Below are positions 8,460 to 47,514 of a stretch of DNA of 64,000 bases, piece by piece. A program made the translations under genes and the position numbers. The stretch lies in assembly GCA_903642215.1 (NCBI GenBank), contig CAHJWG010000012.1, positions 62,001 through 126,000 of the forward strand, written 5' to 3'. Below the pieces are notes generated by a model. The model worked only from the letters and a program-made list of their open reading frames with translations, had not been told where the DNA came from and ran no database searches. The stretch is from Sphingobacteriaceae bacterium (GTDB lineage: Bacteria; Bacteroidota; Bacteroidia; Sphingobacteriales; Sphingobacteriaceae). How positions within the stretch are numbered: position 1 is the stretch's first letter; each line of letters opens with the position of its first letter.

Positions 8460-8552
8460 TTTTTTAGGTGATAAAAACAGTATAGCTGTTTTAAAATCAA
8501 GTAAATCTATTTTTGTCAAGATTTCGGATGCTTCTTTTATCACCTAAAAAAT
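8459..8552. repeat. 18-bp perfect inverted repeat carrying one B and one A motif
   Basis: Arms 8459-8476 and 8535-8552 are perfect reverse complements (TTTTATCACCTAAAAAAT on the right). The left arm continues into form B (8472-8482) and the right arm is preceded by form A (8529-8539), so the arms differ mainly in the motif dinucleotide. The 58-nt loop holds nothing else recognisable. It may also end the bshA transcript. Confidence 0.85.
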
Positions 8553-12633: not shown

Positions 12634-13338
12634 ATGCAAAACGCAATTATAACCGGCGCCACCAAAGGAATTGGATTGGCAATTGCCAAAACTCTGGCCA
12701 GAGAAGGCATTAACCTGGCAATATGTTCCAGAAATAACGATGATTTATTATCGGTAAAAGAAGCATTGCTGCAAATTAATCCTTCCGTAAAAATTTTTAT
12801 TTACGTTGCAGATTGTAGTTTACGTGCCGATGTACTCGCTTTTGCCGCCGCAGCAGAGCAGGAATTGCAATCGGTAGAAATTTTAATTAATAACGCCGGG
12901 CTGTTTTTACCGGGAAGTATTTTGGAGGAACAAGAAAATGCCTTGCAAAAACAGCTGGATTTGAACCTGCTGGCCGGTTACGAACTGTATCGTTTTTTTG
13001 GTAAAAAACTGATGGCTGCACGCGCCGGCCACATCTTTAATATTTGCTCGGTCGCCTCCAAAAAAGTTGTTGTAAATGCGGGCAGTTATTCTGTAACAAA
13101 GTTTGCGCAGCTCGGTCTTAATCATATAATGCGCGAAGAAATGAAGGCTTATCAGGTAAAAGTAACCGCTATATTGCCCGGCTCGACCCTAACAGATTCC
13201 TGGAACGGAACGACGGTTCCCCCGGAAAAATTTGTTTTGCCGGAAGATGTTGCCGCTGCCATATTAAGCTGTTTGAAAATGAGTGCAGGTGCCAATGTGG
13301 ATGAACTGATTATCCGCACGGCAACAGGAGAAATTTAA
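12634..13338 (+). CDS. Short-chain dehydrogenase/reductase
   Basis: NAD(P)-dependent oxidoreductase of the classical SDR type. The TGATKGIG cofactor motif is at residues 8-15, NNAG is present, and the active site shows a Ser upstream of YSVTK. The CSRN segment after beta2 suggests NADP preference. At 234 aa it resembles 3-ketoacyl-ACP-reductase-like SDRs, but the substrate is not known. A form-A motif encodes VKEA near residue 43. Confidence 0.88.
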   Translation: MQNAIITGATKGIGLAIAKTLAREGINLAICSRNNDDLLSVKEALLQINPSVKIFIYVADCSLRADVLAFAAAAEQELQSVEILINNAGLFLPGSILEEQENALQKQLDLNLLAGYELYRFFGKKLMAARAGHIFNICSVASKKVVVNAGSYSVTKFAQLGLNHIMREEMKAYQVKVTAILPGSTLTDSWNGTTVPPEKFVLPEDVAAAILSCLKMSAGANVDELIIRTATGEI

Positions 13339-39911: not shown

Positions 39912-42065
39912 ATGAACGCTGAAACGATTAAAGCCTTGCCGGGTAGATATTGCAACTCGCTAACCGAATATTCGCGCTGGTTAACCCGTGAAGTTACGAT
40001 TGGCGATGTGCCGATGGGCGGAACAAACCCGATCCGCATCCAAAGTATGACCACTACTGATACAATGGACACGGCCGGAACGGTGGCGCAAACCATCCGC
40101 ATGGTTGATGCCGGTTGCGAGTATGTGCGTATTACGGCACCAAGCGTAAAAGAAGCGCAAAATCTGGCAGAGATTAAAAAGCAGCTTCGTGCAAAAGGTT
40201 ATCAAGTTCCGTTGGTGGCCGATATTCATTTCACCCCAAATGCAGCAGAAGTTGCGGCGCGGATTGTAGAGAAAGTACGCATCAACCCCGGAAATTATGC
40301 CGATAAAAAACGCTTCGACGAGCTGGTTTATACCGAGCAGGAATATCAGAATGAGCTGGAGCGCATCTTCAAAAAGTTTACGCCTTTAGTTAACATCTGC
40401 AAAGAATATGGCACGGCAATGCGTATCGGCACCAATCACGGTTCGCTTTCCGACCGGATTATGAGTCAGTATGGCGATACGCCGCGCGGCATGGTCGAAT
40501 CTGCGATGGAATTTATCCGTATGTGCGAAAGCCTGAATTATTATAATCTGGTAATCTCGATGAAATCCAGTAACCCGCAGGTAATGGTGCAGGCGTACCG
40601 GATGCTGGTGGAAACGATGGTGGCCGAAAACATGAATTACCCGCTGCATTTAGGTGTTACCGAGGCCGGCGACGGCGAAGATGGTCGCATCAAATCTGCA
40701 GTAGGTATCGGTACGTTGCTGGAAGATGGCTTGGGCGATACCGTGCGCGTTTCCCTCACCGAAGAACCGGAACATGAGGCACCGGTAGCAATTGCGCTGG
40801 TGGAAAGGTATTTGGAGCGAGGAATGAGGAGCGAGGAGCGGGGAAAAACGAACGAGGAGCTGGGAAAAATAGACATAGCATTTAGAACGACGAGTGAAGA
40901 GCGGAATAGCAATCTTGAACCTGCAAATCCGCTCTCCGCTCTATCTCCTCCGCTCTTTTCACACTCGCCATATGAATATTTAAAACGCCAAACCTACGAA
41001 GCCAACGCCTTCATCGGTGGTTCAATGGTGCCGCGTGTAGTACTTGATTTATCGGCTAAAAACCTGAAAGACCCGACAATTATGGCTGATGCCGGTTATC
41101 TGTATTCGCCTTTGCTGGATAAATATAACATGGCCGACCAGTCGGTAGATTTTGTGTATCTGGCGGATAATCTGCCTTCCTTTGCTTTCCCCGGAAACTT
41201 AAAACAGCTTTACAATTACAAAACCTGGAGTTTTTTAGTCGATAAAAAGAATTGCCATCCTATTTTTTCTTTGGAGGAATATCATATCTCAACCCAAAAA
41301 GATACGGCTTTAAATTTAGTCCGCATTAAAAATAGCGATCTGGAAACTGAAGCTTTCAAAACTTTAACTTTTGATGAAACATTGGTTTTTGTGTTGGAAA
41401 CCGATCAAGATCTTGGTATGGCTGATCAGCGCGAATGCTTCTTTTACCTGCAAAAAAATGGTCTATCAGTGCCGGTGATTGTGAAGAGGAGTTATCTTTT
41501 TGAAGGAGCGAAGAGCGAGGAAAGAGGAGCGGGAAACATCGCCACCAATCAGGATTCGATTTCTATATCTTCCATCGCCGCTCCCCGCTCAACTGACACA
41601 ACAACCAAGCTTCAACTCTACGCCGCAACTGATCTGGGTGCTTTGCTGGTTGATGGTTTCGGCGACGGAATCTGGATTGATGCGCCGGAAATTCCTGCTA
41701 AAGTAATCACTTCTACCGCTTTTGGAATTTTGCAGGCCACACGTTCGCGGATTTCCAAAACAGAATATATTTCTTGTCCAAGCTGCGGCCGCACATTGTT
41801 TGATCTGCAGATAACCACGCAAATGATCCGCAGCAGAACGTCTCATCTCAAAGGTTTAAAAATCGGGATAATGGGCTGTATTGTAAACGGCCCCGGCGAA
41901 ATGGCCGATGCAGATTATGGTTACGTAGGCGCCGGTCCCGATAAAATTACGCTTTACCGCGGCAAAGAAGTGGTGAAAAAAAACGTTTCTTCGGCTTTGG
42001 CTTTAGATGAATTGATTGGAATTATTAAGGTTGATGGAAATTGGGTGGAACCGGAGGTGGGTTAG
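39912..42065 (+). CDS. ispG: (E)-4-hydroxy-3-methylbut-2-enyl-diphosphate synthase IspG, long form
   Basis: Penultimate step of the MEP isoprenoid pathway: converts MEcPP to HMBPP using a [4Fe-4S] cluster. The N-terminal TIM barrel (PMGGTNPIRIQSMTTTDTMD, PLVADIHFTPNAA) and the C-terminal cluster domain (YISCPSCGRTLFDLQ, GCIVNGPGEMADADYGYVGA) are intact. The long form has an extra middle domain, usual in Bacteroidota. At 717 aa it is longer than I expect, because two in-frame palindromic repeats (about 40815-40965 and 41503-41594) add about 80 residues. A form-A motif lies at 41436. Confidence 0.95.
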   Translation: MNAETIKALPGRYCNSLTEYSRWLTREVTIGDVPMGGTNPIRIQSMTTTDTMDTAGTVAQTIRMVDAGCEYVRITAPSVKEAQNLAEIKKQLRAKGYQVPLVADIHFTPNAAEVAARIVEKVRINPGNYADKKRFDELVYTEQEYQNELERIFKKFTPLVNICKEYGTAMRIGTNHGSLSDRIMSQYGDTPRGMVESAMEFIRMCESLNYYNLVISMKSSNPQVMVQAYRMLVETMVAENMNYPLHLGVTEAGDGEDGRIKSAVGIGTLLEDGLGDTVRVSLTEEPEHEAPVAIALVERYLERGMRSEERGKTNEELGKIDIAFRTTSEERNSNLEPANPLSALSPPLFSHSPYEYLKRQTYEANAFIGGSMVPRVVLDLSAKNLKDPTIMADAGYLYSPLLDKYNMADQSVDFVYLADNLPSFAFPGNLKQLYNYKTWSFLVDKKNCHPIFSLEEYHISTQKDTALNLVRIKNSDLETEAFKTLTFDETLVFVLETDQDLGMADQRECFFYLQKNGLSVPVIVKRSYLFEGAKSEERGAGNIATNQDSISISSIAAPRSTDTTTKLQLYAATDLGALLVDGFGDGIWIDAPEIPAKVITSTAFGILQATRSRISKTEYISCPSCGRTLFDLQITTQMIRSRTSHLKGLKIGIMGCIVNGPGEMADADYGYVGAGPDKITLYRGKEVVKKNVSSALALDELIGIIKVDGNWVEPEVG
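40815..40965. repeat. In-frame palindromic repeat inside ispG, copy 1
   Basis: Left GAGGAGCGAGGAGCGGGG (40826-40843) and right TCCGCTCTCCGCTCTATC region (40928-40955) are inverted versions of one repeat. It encodes a polar stretch rich in E, R, S and N (ERGMRSEERGKTNEELGK) between LVERYLE and SPYEYLKRQTYE. It stays in frame. Confidence 0.7.
41503..41594. repeat. In-frame palindromic repeat inside ispG, copy 2
   Basis: Left GAGCGAAGAGCGAGGAAAG (from 41505) and right CGCCGCTCCCCGCTCAAC (41577-41594) form an inverted pair of the same family as copy 1. It encodes GAKSEERGAGNIATNQDS and what follows up to RSTDT, then the normal IspG sequence resumes. Confidence 0.7.
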
Positions 42066-43187: not shown

Positions 43188-43196
43188 AGTTGGCAA

Positions 43197-43555
43197 TTTG
43201 TATCAATTATAAAAATAGGAAATATAAACAAATTGACAATGCTTCTTTTAGCACCTAAAAATTAGGCATTCAAATTTTCAACTACTTAATTCCCCGCTCT
43301 TTTCTCCTCACTCTTTGTTTTTTCCCTTGCTCTCCGCTCTTCCCGATAAATAATATTTGGGCGTGCCCGGCCCCAGCCGGTCGGGCTTTCCGCTGCAAGT
43401 CCTCGCTGCGCTGTGGGCTTTCCGCTGCAATCCCTCACGCGCATCGTGGCAACCTTAAAAATTCATCATCCGGCTCATTTAAAATAGCTAAAACCGAAGC
43501 CTGATTAATCCGGTTTAGTTTTAAACAAAGCATCCAAAATCAATACAAAAAAACC
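43197..43555. repeat. Repeat-rich 359-bp intergenic region
   Basis: From left: a form-A motif with GCACCTAAAAAT tail (43240-43262); a CGCTCTTTTCTCCTCACTC and CTCTCCGCTCTTCCC stretch (43291-43345) of the same family as the ispG inserts; and a GC-rich block (43360-43450) containing GGGCTTTCCGCTGCAA twice (43383-43398 and 43415-43430, period 32) and GGGCGTGCCC. This GC-rich block resembles a repeat I associate with Bacteroidota genomes. No gene is evident, and poxB starts at 43556. Confidence 0.75.
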
Positions 43556-45298
43556 ATGGCAAAAACAGTAGCAGACCAGCTCGTAGATATGCTCTCCGAA
43601 GCTGGCGTAAAAAGAATATATGCCGTAACCGGCGACAGTTTAAACAATGTAAACGATGCCGTGCGGCGCAGCGAAGGTAAAATCCGCTGGATCCACGTGC
43701 GCCACGAAGAAGTTGGCGCTTACGCCGCCAGTGCCGAAGCGCAGTTAACCGGCAAACTGGCCTGTTGCGCCGGTAGCAGCGGACCTGGACACGTGCATTT
43801 AATCAACGGTTTATACGATGCGCACCGTGCCGCCGCGCCGGTTCTGGCCATCGCTTCTACCATAATGTCTAAAGAGTTTGGTACCGAATATTTCCAGGAA
43901 ACCAACACCATTAAATTGTTTGACGATTGCAGCCATTACAACCAGGTTGCCGTTACGCCGCAGCAATTGCCGCGCATGTTGCAGGCCGGCATCCAGCACG
44001 CGGTACATCGCAAAGGGGTTGCTGTAATTGGTTTGCCGGGCGATGTAACCGAAAAAGATGCCGAAGAAAGCGTAACATCGATGCACTTTTACAACCCGGA
44101 ATCGGTTACGCGCCCAAGTGATAAAGAGTTGCAGGATTTAGCTGCGCTGATTGCCGCGCACGATAAAATCACCATTTATTGCGGCATTGGTGCTATCGGT
44201 GCGCACGATGAAGTGGTTGCATTTGCAGAAAAAATAAAAGCTCCGGTAGCATATTCTTACCGTGGCAAAATGGAAATCCAGCATGATAACCCGTACGAAG
44301 TAGGCATGACGGGCTTGCTCGGTTTGCCTTCGGGTTACAACAGTATGCACAAAGCGAGTTTGGTGATTTTGCTGGGAACGGATTTTCCATACATCGATTT
44401 TATGCCAACCGATAACAAGATTGTGCAAATCGACATCAAACCGGAACGTTTGGGTCGCCGCGCCAAATTAGAAATGGGTTTATGCGGAACGATCAAACAT
44501 ACGCTGCAGGCACTGATGCCTTTTTTATCGGCCAAAAATGATGACGGCTTTTTAAAAGAGCAGCTGGATTTTTATGAAAAGGTAAAAGAAAACAACCAGA
44601 TTTACGTAAAAGACCGCGGAAAAACTGATGCTATTCACCCGGAATTTTTAGCTTCAACCATTAACAAATTAGCTACGAATGATGCCATTTTTACCATGGA
44701 TACGGGCATGTGCTGCGTTTGGGGCGCGCGTTACATAGATTCTACCGGTAAAAGAAGCATGATCGGTTCTTTTAATCACGGCTCGATGGCCAACGCCATG
44801 CCGCAGGCAATTGGTGCCGCGCTGGCTTTCCCCGAGCGACAAGTTGTTGCTTTTTGCGGAGACGGTGGTTTATCCATGCTTTTAGGCGATCTGGCTACAG
44901 TAATGCAATATAAATTACCGATCAAGCTGATCGTTTTTAACAATAAATCATTGGGTATGGTGAAGCTGGAAATGGAAGTTGCCGGCCTGCCCGATTGGCA
45001 AACCGATATGGCCAATCCGGATTTTGCCGCTGTGGCCGCTGCTTTCGGCATCAAAGGCATTACCATAAACGATCCTGAAAACCTGGAAGCAGCCATGCAG
45101 CAGGCGTTTGCTACAGAAGGTCCGGTTTTGGTTAATGTTATGACCGATCCAAACGCTTTGTCTATGCCACCAGAAATCGAATTTAAACAAGTAAAAGGCA
45201 TGGCCACCGCGATGGGCAAGCTGATTATGGACGGTAAATTTGGTGAGGTTGTGGATACCGTAAAATCTAATTACAAGCATATTAAGGATGTGATTTAA
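43556..45298 (+). CDS. poxB: Pyruvate dehydrogenase (quinone)-like ThDP enzyme PoxB
   Basis: Thiamine-diphosphate enzyme, close in order and motifs to E. coli PoxB, which oxidises pyruvate to acetate and passes electrons to quinone. The N-terminal ThDP Glu is in HVRHEEVGAYAASAEAQL, with SSGPGHVHLINGLYD and YFQETNTIKLF. The C-terminal ThDP/Mg motif is FCGDGGLSMLLGD to LIVFNNKSLGM. Length 580 aa versus 572 in E. coli. The amphipathic membrane-binding tail is not obvious, so acetolactate-synthase-like or phosphonopyruvate-type specificity cannot be ruled out entirely. Confidence 0.9.
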   Translation: MAKTVADQLVDMLSEAGVKRIYAVTGDSLNNVNDAVRRSEGKIRWIHVRHEEVGAYAASAEAQLTGKLACCAGSSGPGHVHLINGLYDAHRAAAPVLAIASTIMSKEFGTEYFQETNTIKLFDDCSHYNQVAVTPQQLPRMLQAGIQHAVHRKGVAVIGLPGDVTEKDAEESVTSMHFYNPESVTRPSDKELQDLAALIAAHDKITIYCGIGAIGAHDEVVAFAEKIKAPVAYSYRGKMEIQHDNPYEVGMTGLLGLPSGYNSMHKASLVILLGTDFPYIDFMPTDNKIVQIDIKPERLGRRAKLEMGLCGTIKHTLQALMPFLSAKNDDGFLKEQLDFYEKVKENNQIYVKDRGKTDAIHPEFLASTINKLATNDAIFTMDTGMCCVWGARYIDSTGKRSMIGSFNHGSMANAMPQAIGAALAFPERQVVAFCGDGGLSMLLGDLATVMQYKLPIKLIVFNNKSLGMVKLEMEVAGLPDWQTDMANPDFAAVAAAFGIKGITINDPENLEAAMQQAFATEGPVLVNVMTDPNALSMPPEIEFKQVKGMATAMGKLIMDGKFGEVVDTVKSNYKHIKDVI

Positions 45299-46898: not shown

Positions 46899-46979
46899 GG
46901 CGGATGCTATTTTTACGGGTGTAAAAGTAGTGGATTTTGTTTTCGGCTGGAAGCTTCTTTTATCGGTATAAAATTAATT

Positions 46980-47112
46980 GAGCGGGCTTTTCAGCCCTTG
47001 CTTTCGTTCTTTTTGCTTGAACAAAAAGAACCAAAAATTCAAGAAAGGACGAATCGCCTCCGGGCGTCCTTTCTGCCCAACGCACCTGGGTGGCTACCTT
47101 GCAGGCGGCTTT
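46980..47112. repeat. Structured repeat, copy 1
   Basis: Contains three hairpins: GGGCTTTTCAGCCC (46985-46997 region), GTTCTTTTTG/CAAAAAGAAC (47006-47031) and GAAAGGACG/CGTCCTTTC (47043-47073) with CGCCTCCGGG in the loop. The tail reads CACCTGGGTGGCTACCTTGC. An inverted copy is at 47309-47430. Confidence 0.8.
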
Positions 47113-47156
47113 GTAGAGTTTATAAAAATATGTTGTACAAGAAGTATGTTATTGCT

Positions 47157-47235
47157 TGTCATGCAGAACTTGTTTCGGCATCTCACAAGCAAATCAAATA
47201 CTTTTCTGAGGGATCTTGAATCAAGTTCAAGATGA
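47157..47235. repeat. Dispersed palindromic repeat (TCATGC...GATGAC type), copy 1
   Basis: The left part TCATGCAGAACTTGTTTCGG and the right part CAAGTTCAAGATGAC are imperfect inverted repeats with GGCATCTC and GGATCTTG between. A second copy lies at 55741-55827. It lies between the two inverted structured repeats. Confidence 0.75.
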
Positions 47236-47308
47236 CAAAATATAGATCGATCTGAAAATTTTTTAAAAAAGGTTGTAAAAGAAGTAAGTACCCACTATAA
47301 AGAACCGT

Positions 47309-47430
47309 TTGCAAGATAGCCACGCAGGTGTGCTGGGCTGCATTTCGCCCGGAGGCGATCCGAAATGCTTGAATTTTTGGTTCTTTTGTTTCAAGACAAA
47401 AGAACAGAATCCAAGCAACCGCGGGTTTGC
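47309..47430. repeat. Structured repeat, copy 2 (inverted)
   Basis: Inverted relative to copy 1: GCAAGATAGCCACGCAGGTG, the hairpin GCATTTCG/CGAAATGC (47340-47368) with CGGAGGCGAT in its loop, then GTTCTTTTG/CAAAAGAAC (47380-47405). Compared with copy 1 both stem arms changed together while the loop stayed the same. Confidence 0.8.
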
Positions 47431-47514
47431 TTGTAGTAAACAAGCCATGCTTCTTTTATCAGTATAAAATTGATGAAGATATCTCCCTTCTGAGGATATG
47501 ACAATGCGAAGATT

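Follow-up and report, generated by a model that had tools for sequence, protein, structure and literature searches.

The segment at 46980-47450 of the window (by which we mean the whole 64-kb stretch of DNA that was analysed) is, in our reading, one copy of a BIME-like interspersed element that moves or recombines as structure-recognised DNA; we put the probability of this explanation at roughly one half. The copy belongs to a dispersed family of structured units whose stems covary, which lie between genes and which pair in inverted orientation. At one locus the family has grown into an array, sister species hold unequal numbers of units, and the spread through the phylum is patchy. The family behaves like mobile or recombining palindromic DNA, and we infer that it transposes. 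Against this explanation, no mobilising enzyme was found among the Y1, IS110, TnpB and reverse transcriptase genes examined, and none of the loci compared revealed a precisely bounded insertion accompanied by a duplicated target.

Anatomy of the unit pair

By direct reading, the window contains one convergent pair of a unit of about 100 nt, in inverted orientation (Table 1). Both members were matched by the covariance model, unit A with 105.2 bits (47005-47104) and unit B with 110.5 bits (47309-47406). An earlier note on this DNA had described two inverted copies with a shared loop and differing stems, and the description was accurate: S3, a variable stem with a fixed loop, is GAAAGGACG/CGTCCTTTC in copy A and GCATTTCG/CGAAATGC, the most frequent of the family's type 2 stems, in copy B, while the loops (AATCGCCTCCGGG in A, GATCGCCTCCGGG in B) are near-identical, (A/G)ATCGCCTCCGGG. 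The same note had pointed to a change in the second hairpin, S1. That change is indeed compensatory, involving two pairs; it is not a shortening, as this hairpin is 10 bp long in each copy (11 bp in some other genera). The six-base loop of S1 (CTTGAA, CTTGAT or CTTGAC) pairs with a downstream hexamer (TTCAAG, ATCAAG or GTCAAG) to form S2, which crosses S1 and must therefore represent a pseudoknot or an alternative state; a full, simultaneous S1/S2 pseudoknot is sterically doubtful because connecting loop bases are near-absent. Support for a small fourth helix, S4, is weak, and motif-flanked copies have an extra predicted 5′ hairpin, S0. Copies A and B folded more stably than shuffled sequences on both strands, whether treated as DNA (z of -3.5 to -4.4) or as RNA (z of -3.1 to -4.1).

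Table 1. Features at and around the unit pair, in window coordinates
Feature	Position	Strand	Sequence or basis
Left motif copy	46953-46978	+	GCTTCTTTTATCGGTATAAAATTAAT; 92% identical to 47449-47474
Unit A (type 1 side of pair)	46980-47125	+	nhmmer family match
S0 of unit A	46981-46988 with 46993-47002	+	single-strand fold prediction
S1 of unit A	47006-47015 with 47022-47031	+	GTTCTTTTTG with CAAAAAGAAC; 10 bp
S2 of unit A	47016-47021 with 47038-47043	+	S1 loop CTTGAA with TTCAAG
S3 of unit A	47043-47051 with 47065-47073	+	GAAAGGACG with CGTCCTTTC; conserved loop 47052-47064
GTCAT...ATGAC palindrome, separate, of another repeat family, between A and B	47158-47236	.	
Unit B (type 2 side of pair)	47286-47450	-	nhmmer family match
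S3 of unit B	47361-47368 with 47340-47347	-	GCATTTCG with CGAAATGC; conserved loop 47348-47360
S2 of unit B	47390-47395 with 47368-47373	-	S1 loop CTTGAA with TTCAAG; direct reading
S1 of unit B	47396-47405 with 47380-47389	-	GTTCTTTTGT with ACAAAAGAAC; direct reading
Right motif copy	47447-47474	+	ATGCTTCTTTTATCAGTATAAAATTGAT

Other repeats were encountered in the window. The palindrome between A and B is one of a second dispersed family, GTCATxCxGAACTTGTTTC...GAxxCAAGTTCxxGATGAC, often locally clustered; this part of the window-pair query (positions 170-262) matched many other places in the genome, and further members lie in stretches L037, L038 and L039. A short repeat, GGGCTTTCCGCTGCAA..CCTC, occurs twice, 32 bp apart, at 43383-43436 in the intergenic gap 43196-43556, with weaker copies elsewhere in the window. 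The 717-aa ORF at 39912-42065, which we take to be IspG-like, appears to contain low-complexity segments inserted in frame around 'MRSEERGKTNEELGK' and 'AKSEERGAGN'; these could be short repeats that have entered a coding gene.

Distribution within and beyond the genus

The source genome (G000, Mucilaginibacter-type; 3.84 Mb in 68 contigs) gave 145 overlapping matches to the window pair, from which at least 64 units were resolved by nhmmer in 32 stretches. The covariance model placed 65 units in this genome and 30 and 27 in two other members of the genus (G001 and G002), the copies of G000 beyond the 32 stretches being counted by the genome-wide model search only. These counts are probably lower bounds, because several contigs of G000 end inside units. 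Two related but distinct structured units recur, type 1 (GACAAACCC...CGTTTTGTC) and type 2 (GCATTTCGG...GCGAAATGC), usually facing each other or alternating in arrays. Most copies occur in inverted pairs, arrays being found in some places.

All but one of 29 composites in G000 were clear of long ORFs. Relative to their neighbours, as given by simple longest-ORF gene calls, 9 lay between tandem, 8 between convergent and 6 between divergent genes, and the remaining 6 had one neighbour outside the stretch. No preference for gene orientation, or for the 5′ or 3′ ends of genes, was apparent among the 29. Units were shared with G001 or G002 at only 4 of the 29 loci. The alanyl-tRNA synthetase locus carries two units in the sisters and five in G000, where they recur with a period of about 420 bases; the array has thus grown. 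At the window locus both sister species retain the flanking genes, a motif pair and a GTCAT-type palindrome between its members and have no unit; gain in G000 is the simpler reading, with loss from both sisters possible.

The covariance model matched 26 of 60 relatives, and the exact core, searched as a strict pattern, was present in 5 of 395 genomes of the phylum. The core was found in Parabacteroides, Chitinophaga, Taibaiella, Rhodonellum, Ilyomonas, Ferruginibacter and other Bacteroidota, and also in Melioribacteraceae and Calditrichia assemblies. In the copies read from other lineages, what follows the S1/S2 module is a palindrome specific to the lineage or some other sequence. Such patchy presence is in keeping with a mobile or losable element.

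Covariation of the stems

The compensatory change first seen between two copies extends to further copies in the genome, the genus and the phylum. We scored covariation against 500 shuffles and against slid registers of the same alignments. A plain MAFFT alignment of 60 units scored 0.269 (0.089 in shuffles, at most 0.093 in slid registers), 84 genus units aligned to the model scored 0.343 (0.097 and at most 0.093), and 146 phylum-wide matches scored 0.299 (0.072 and 0.033). In all three the score lay above every one of the 500 shuffles and every slid register; alignments fitted to the model (84 and 146) are biased towards structure, and the MAFFT alignment agrees with them. RNAalifold, run on the MAFFT alignment, picked S2 and missed S1 and S3, I think owing to differing stem lengths, and the stated structures were therefore counted instead.

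By this count, 97.8% of S1 cells were paired in the genus and 98.6% in the phylum-wide set; among the 146 matches of the latter, 7 of the 10 pairs had changed on both sides. S3 showed both-sided changes at 7 of 8 pairs in the 84 genus units. As a check that leans little on alignment, S3 arms were re-dealt among units: arms of the same unit paired at 7.3 of 9 positions, re-dealt arms at 4.75 (maximum 5.27). Of S2 cells, 95.8% were paired, the last pair being variable (AU, UA or CG). In phylum copies, from genomes located with a search pattern in which the downstream hexamer was unconstrained, this last pair was A-T in 20 copies, T-A in 71 and mismatched in none, so that 91 of 91 readable copies matched and 21 had no readable partner. 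Compensatory change was also seen at an orthologous locus with conserved flanking genes, where S1 reads TTTTTC/GAAAAA in G000 and TTTTTG/CAAAAA in G001.

Units of several genera (L063, L074, L081, L102, L134 and others) carry a persistent C.A mismatch at S1 pair 3, in the forms GTCAC/GTAAC and GTCCC/GGAAC, in which the adjoining pair co-varies. The mismatch could be a strand mark for recognition.

Search for a partner enzyme

The search for a Y1/REP transposase that the earlier note had proposed returned a single Y1 gene in G000, a RAYT-like gene of 182 aa (G000:C6:95721; L009 1426-1971, L040). No unit was present in the 7.5 kb examined around it, no RAYT gene was found between two inverted units in this genome, and neither the S1 nor the S3 foot of aligned units carried the GTAG/CGTC tag of REPs. 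IS110 and TnpB were rejected as drivers, both being absent from the three genus members. Each of these genomes has one reverse transcriptase match; the three are only 22-35% identical over part of their length, are not orthologous and have no unit nearby, and they too were rejected. Within 2.5 kb of units at the examined loci no recurrent transposase or other mobile-element protein was seen, the recurrent neighbours being only ordinary genes and ORFs to which the repeat gives rise.

Several other candidates were set aside. Carriage by a plasmid or phage was rejected after the window composite found no match in collections of either. The idea of integron attC sites was dropped because of the alternating orientation of the units and because a resemblance to CGTTAGGCC was seen only in Parabacteroides. 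A leader, riboswitch or terminator was ruled against by the absence of gene-orientation preference.

Comparison with known systems

BIMEs and REPINs are inverted pairs and arrays of REP sequences in enterobacteria and Pseudomonas (PMC2817692, PMC3116915, PMC3733652). Like them, the present family is intergenic and of high copy number, has two unit types that alternate in inverted orientation, undergoes compensatory stem changes and expands in arrays. Unlike them, it is built from a unit of about 100 nt with S1, S2 and S3 rather than from one palindrome of 20-40 bp, it has neither the GTAG/CGTC tag nor a linked RAYT, and it belongs to the phylum Bacteroidota. The architecture is thus BIME-like; the REP-defining features are absent, so the family is not a member of the REPs.

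In the IS200/IS605 family, hairpins near the element ends are recognised in single-stranded DNA. The hairpins of our units could, by analogy, be recognised in the same way; in contrast to those elements, there is no linked Y1, TnpB is missing from all three members of the genus, and the two ends are structured and inverted so as to face each other. MITEs are likewise short, gene-free and intergenic with inverted related ends, but no parental transposon with the same ends was found at the examined loci, there is no proven target duplication, and the ends here are structured units of conserved fold and variable sequence. With the RNA families of Rfam the units have in common a conserved secondary structure with covariation, but no family reached its gathering score: the best match scored 24 bits, the gathering score being 95, and the best matches were chance-level hits to unrelated families. 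Searches of the open-licence literature on the core sequence, on Bacteroidetes palindromic repeats and on BIMEs gave no description of the family.

Competing explanations

The earlier note held that the structure is selected, as RNA or as a hairpin recognised by a transposase. The first of these would make the units structured RNAs (small RNAs, or mRNA-stability or cis-regulatory elements) expressed from many intergenic copies, with a selected fold that includes S1/S2. Strong covariation, conserved loops, a pseudoknot-like S2 that covaries and stable RNA folds are all compatible with it. An RNA fold should, however, enrich its own strand for G·U, because A·C on one strand is G·U on the other. 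Genus-level G·U and A·C cells numbered 5 and 13 in S1, 12 and 11 in S3, and 47 and 10 in S4 (the last mostly in one column); S1 and S3 together thus have 17 G·U and 24 A·C, compared with 15 and 0 in nine tRNAs at the same loci, a small control obtained with a structure-aware finder. A mild G·U excess in S3 of the phylum set (32 versus 15) and a tally of 30 versus 11 in S4 favour RNA. Since they lack a G·U preference, S1 and genus-level S3 tentatively look like DNA-level palindromes in this small test, in which S4 is opposite in bias. Against RNA are also the reading of paired units off opposite strands, the indifference to the 5′ and 3′ ends of genes, the patchy distribution at high copy number and the unreached Rfam thresholds. 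Selection as RNA is accordingly not favoured; we consider it unlikely, and the data are better accommodated by a BIME-like interspersed element acting at the DNA level than by a functional RNA.

Nor is selection the sole reading of the covariation, far above controls as it is, because correction by template switching at quasi-palindromes gives co-varying stems without selection. Replication would then copy one arm onto the other in an otherwise inert dispersed repeat, with no selection on the fold. S3 varies as whole modules (GACAAAC, GCATTTC, GAATGCC, GAACGGC, GAACAGA) more than by single-pair steps, some arms are hybrids (GCATTTCGG with GCGGCATTC, for example), and complementarity is perfect without wobble, all of which speaks for template switching. 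It accounts poorly for the conservation of the S3 loop and the S1/S2 module across genera, for covariation in S2 despite the half of S1 that splits its arms, and for the C.A mismatch at S1 pair 3, which correction should erase and which persists beside a covarying pair; we think it unlikely but viable. Movement by a Y1 transposase, of the RAYT or IS200/IS605 kind, acting on a REP- or REPIN-type repeat is suggested by the inverted pairs, alternating arrays and intergenic placement, as in BIMEs and REPINs, and by the one RAYT-like gene of the genome. That gene, however, is adjoined by different palindromes (GGGATTTGTAATCCC, GGATTTCCAATCC), short and unrelated to the hairpin family; a Y1_Tnp match is missing from 7 of the 26 unit-bearing genomes, only one weak unit match occurs in a genome with 10 Y1 matches, and the hairpin foot is untagged. 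This explanation appears very improbable.

Under the preferred explanation, a BIME-like element handled as DNA, each unit, when single-stranded or extruded as a cruciform, would form the S1 and S3 stems, and the loop of S1 could pair downstream as S2. Copies, recognised by their structure at the DNA level, would pass from one intergenic site to another by means of an enzyme acting in trans or by recombination, and arrays would grow by unequal crossing-over. The fold rather than the sequence would be kept, the stems drifting through compensatory change or through copying of one arm into the other. A bolder proposal, which we regard as speculative and unlikely, is that the units form a class of mobile DNA present throughout the phylum, identified by its fold and not its sequence (S1 hairpin, loop-to-downstream pairing and a freely varying stem) and moved by a Bacteroidota single-strand-DNA recombinase or transposase unrelated to RAYT, IS200/IS605, IS110 and TnpB.

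The flanking iterated motif

On either side of the composite lies a copy of a short genus-specific motif, ATRCTKYTTTTAYC with an A/T tract several bases on. This direct repeat does not establish a target-site duplication: the motif pair is kept in both sisters without hairpin units, and the motif is iterated genus-wide and present without a unit. A 12-mer form, ATRCTKYTTTTA, has 54 exact copies in the window (0.39 expected), 33 of them outside long ORFs, which cover 86% of the window; the motif is thus enriched between genes. The three members of the genus contain 1045, 1606 and 1828 copies of a 14-mer form, ATRCTTCTTTTAYC, and none of the other 57 genomes has more than 4. Copies occur on both strands (for example at 8528, 17044, 26063, 33737, 41435, 47447, 55702 and 62160 on the plus strand and at 12755, 17100, 30138 and 58533 on the minus strand), including several close inverted pairs. 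In its genomic signature the motif resembles a DNA uptake sequence, which makes uptake a candidate function; a ComEC gene is present, and ComEC is common. When Riemerella and Flavobacterium were searched by k-mers for uptake sequences, only A/T-rich k-mers were listed, and their function was left open (PMC7965970). The uptake-like motif (in the form ATGCTTCTTTTATC) makes DNA-uptake specificity in Bacteroidota directly testable, and is possibly of more interest than the hairpin finding.

Implications

Several contigs end in the repeats, which thus break assemblies. Compensatory change within a dispersed repeat points to shape, and not sequence, as the property that is preserved, and the pattern recurs throughout the phylum without a known enzyme. 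Finding that enzyme, or finding that there is none and that replication alone maintains perfect stems, would explain the spread and persistence of such palindromes.
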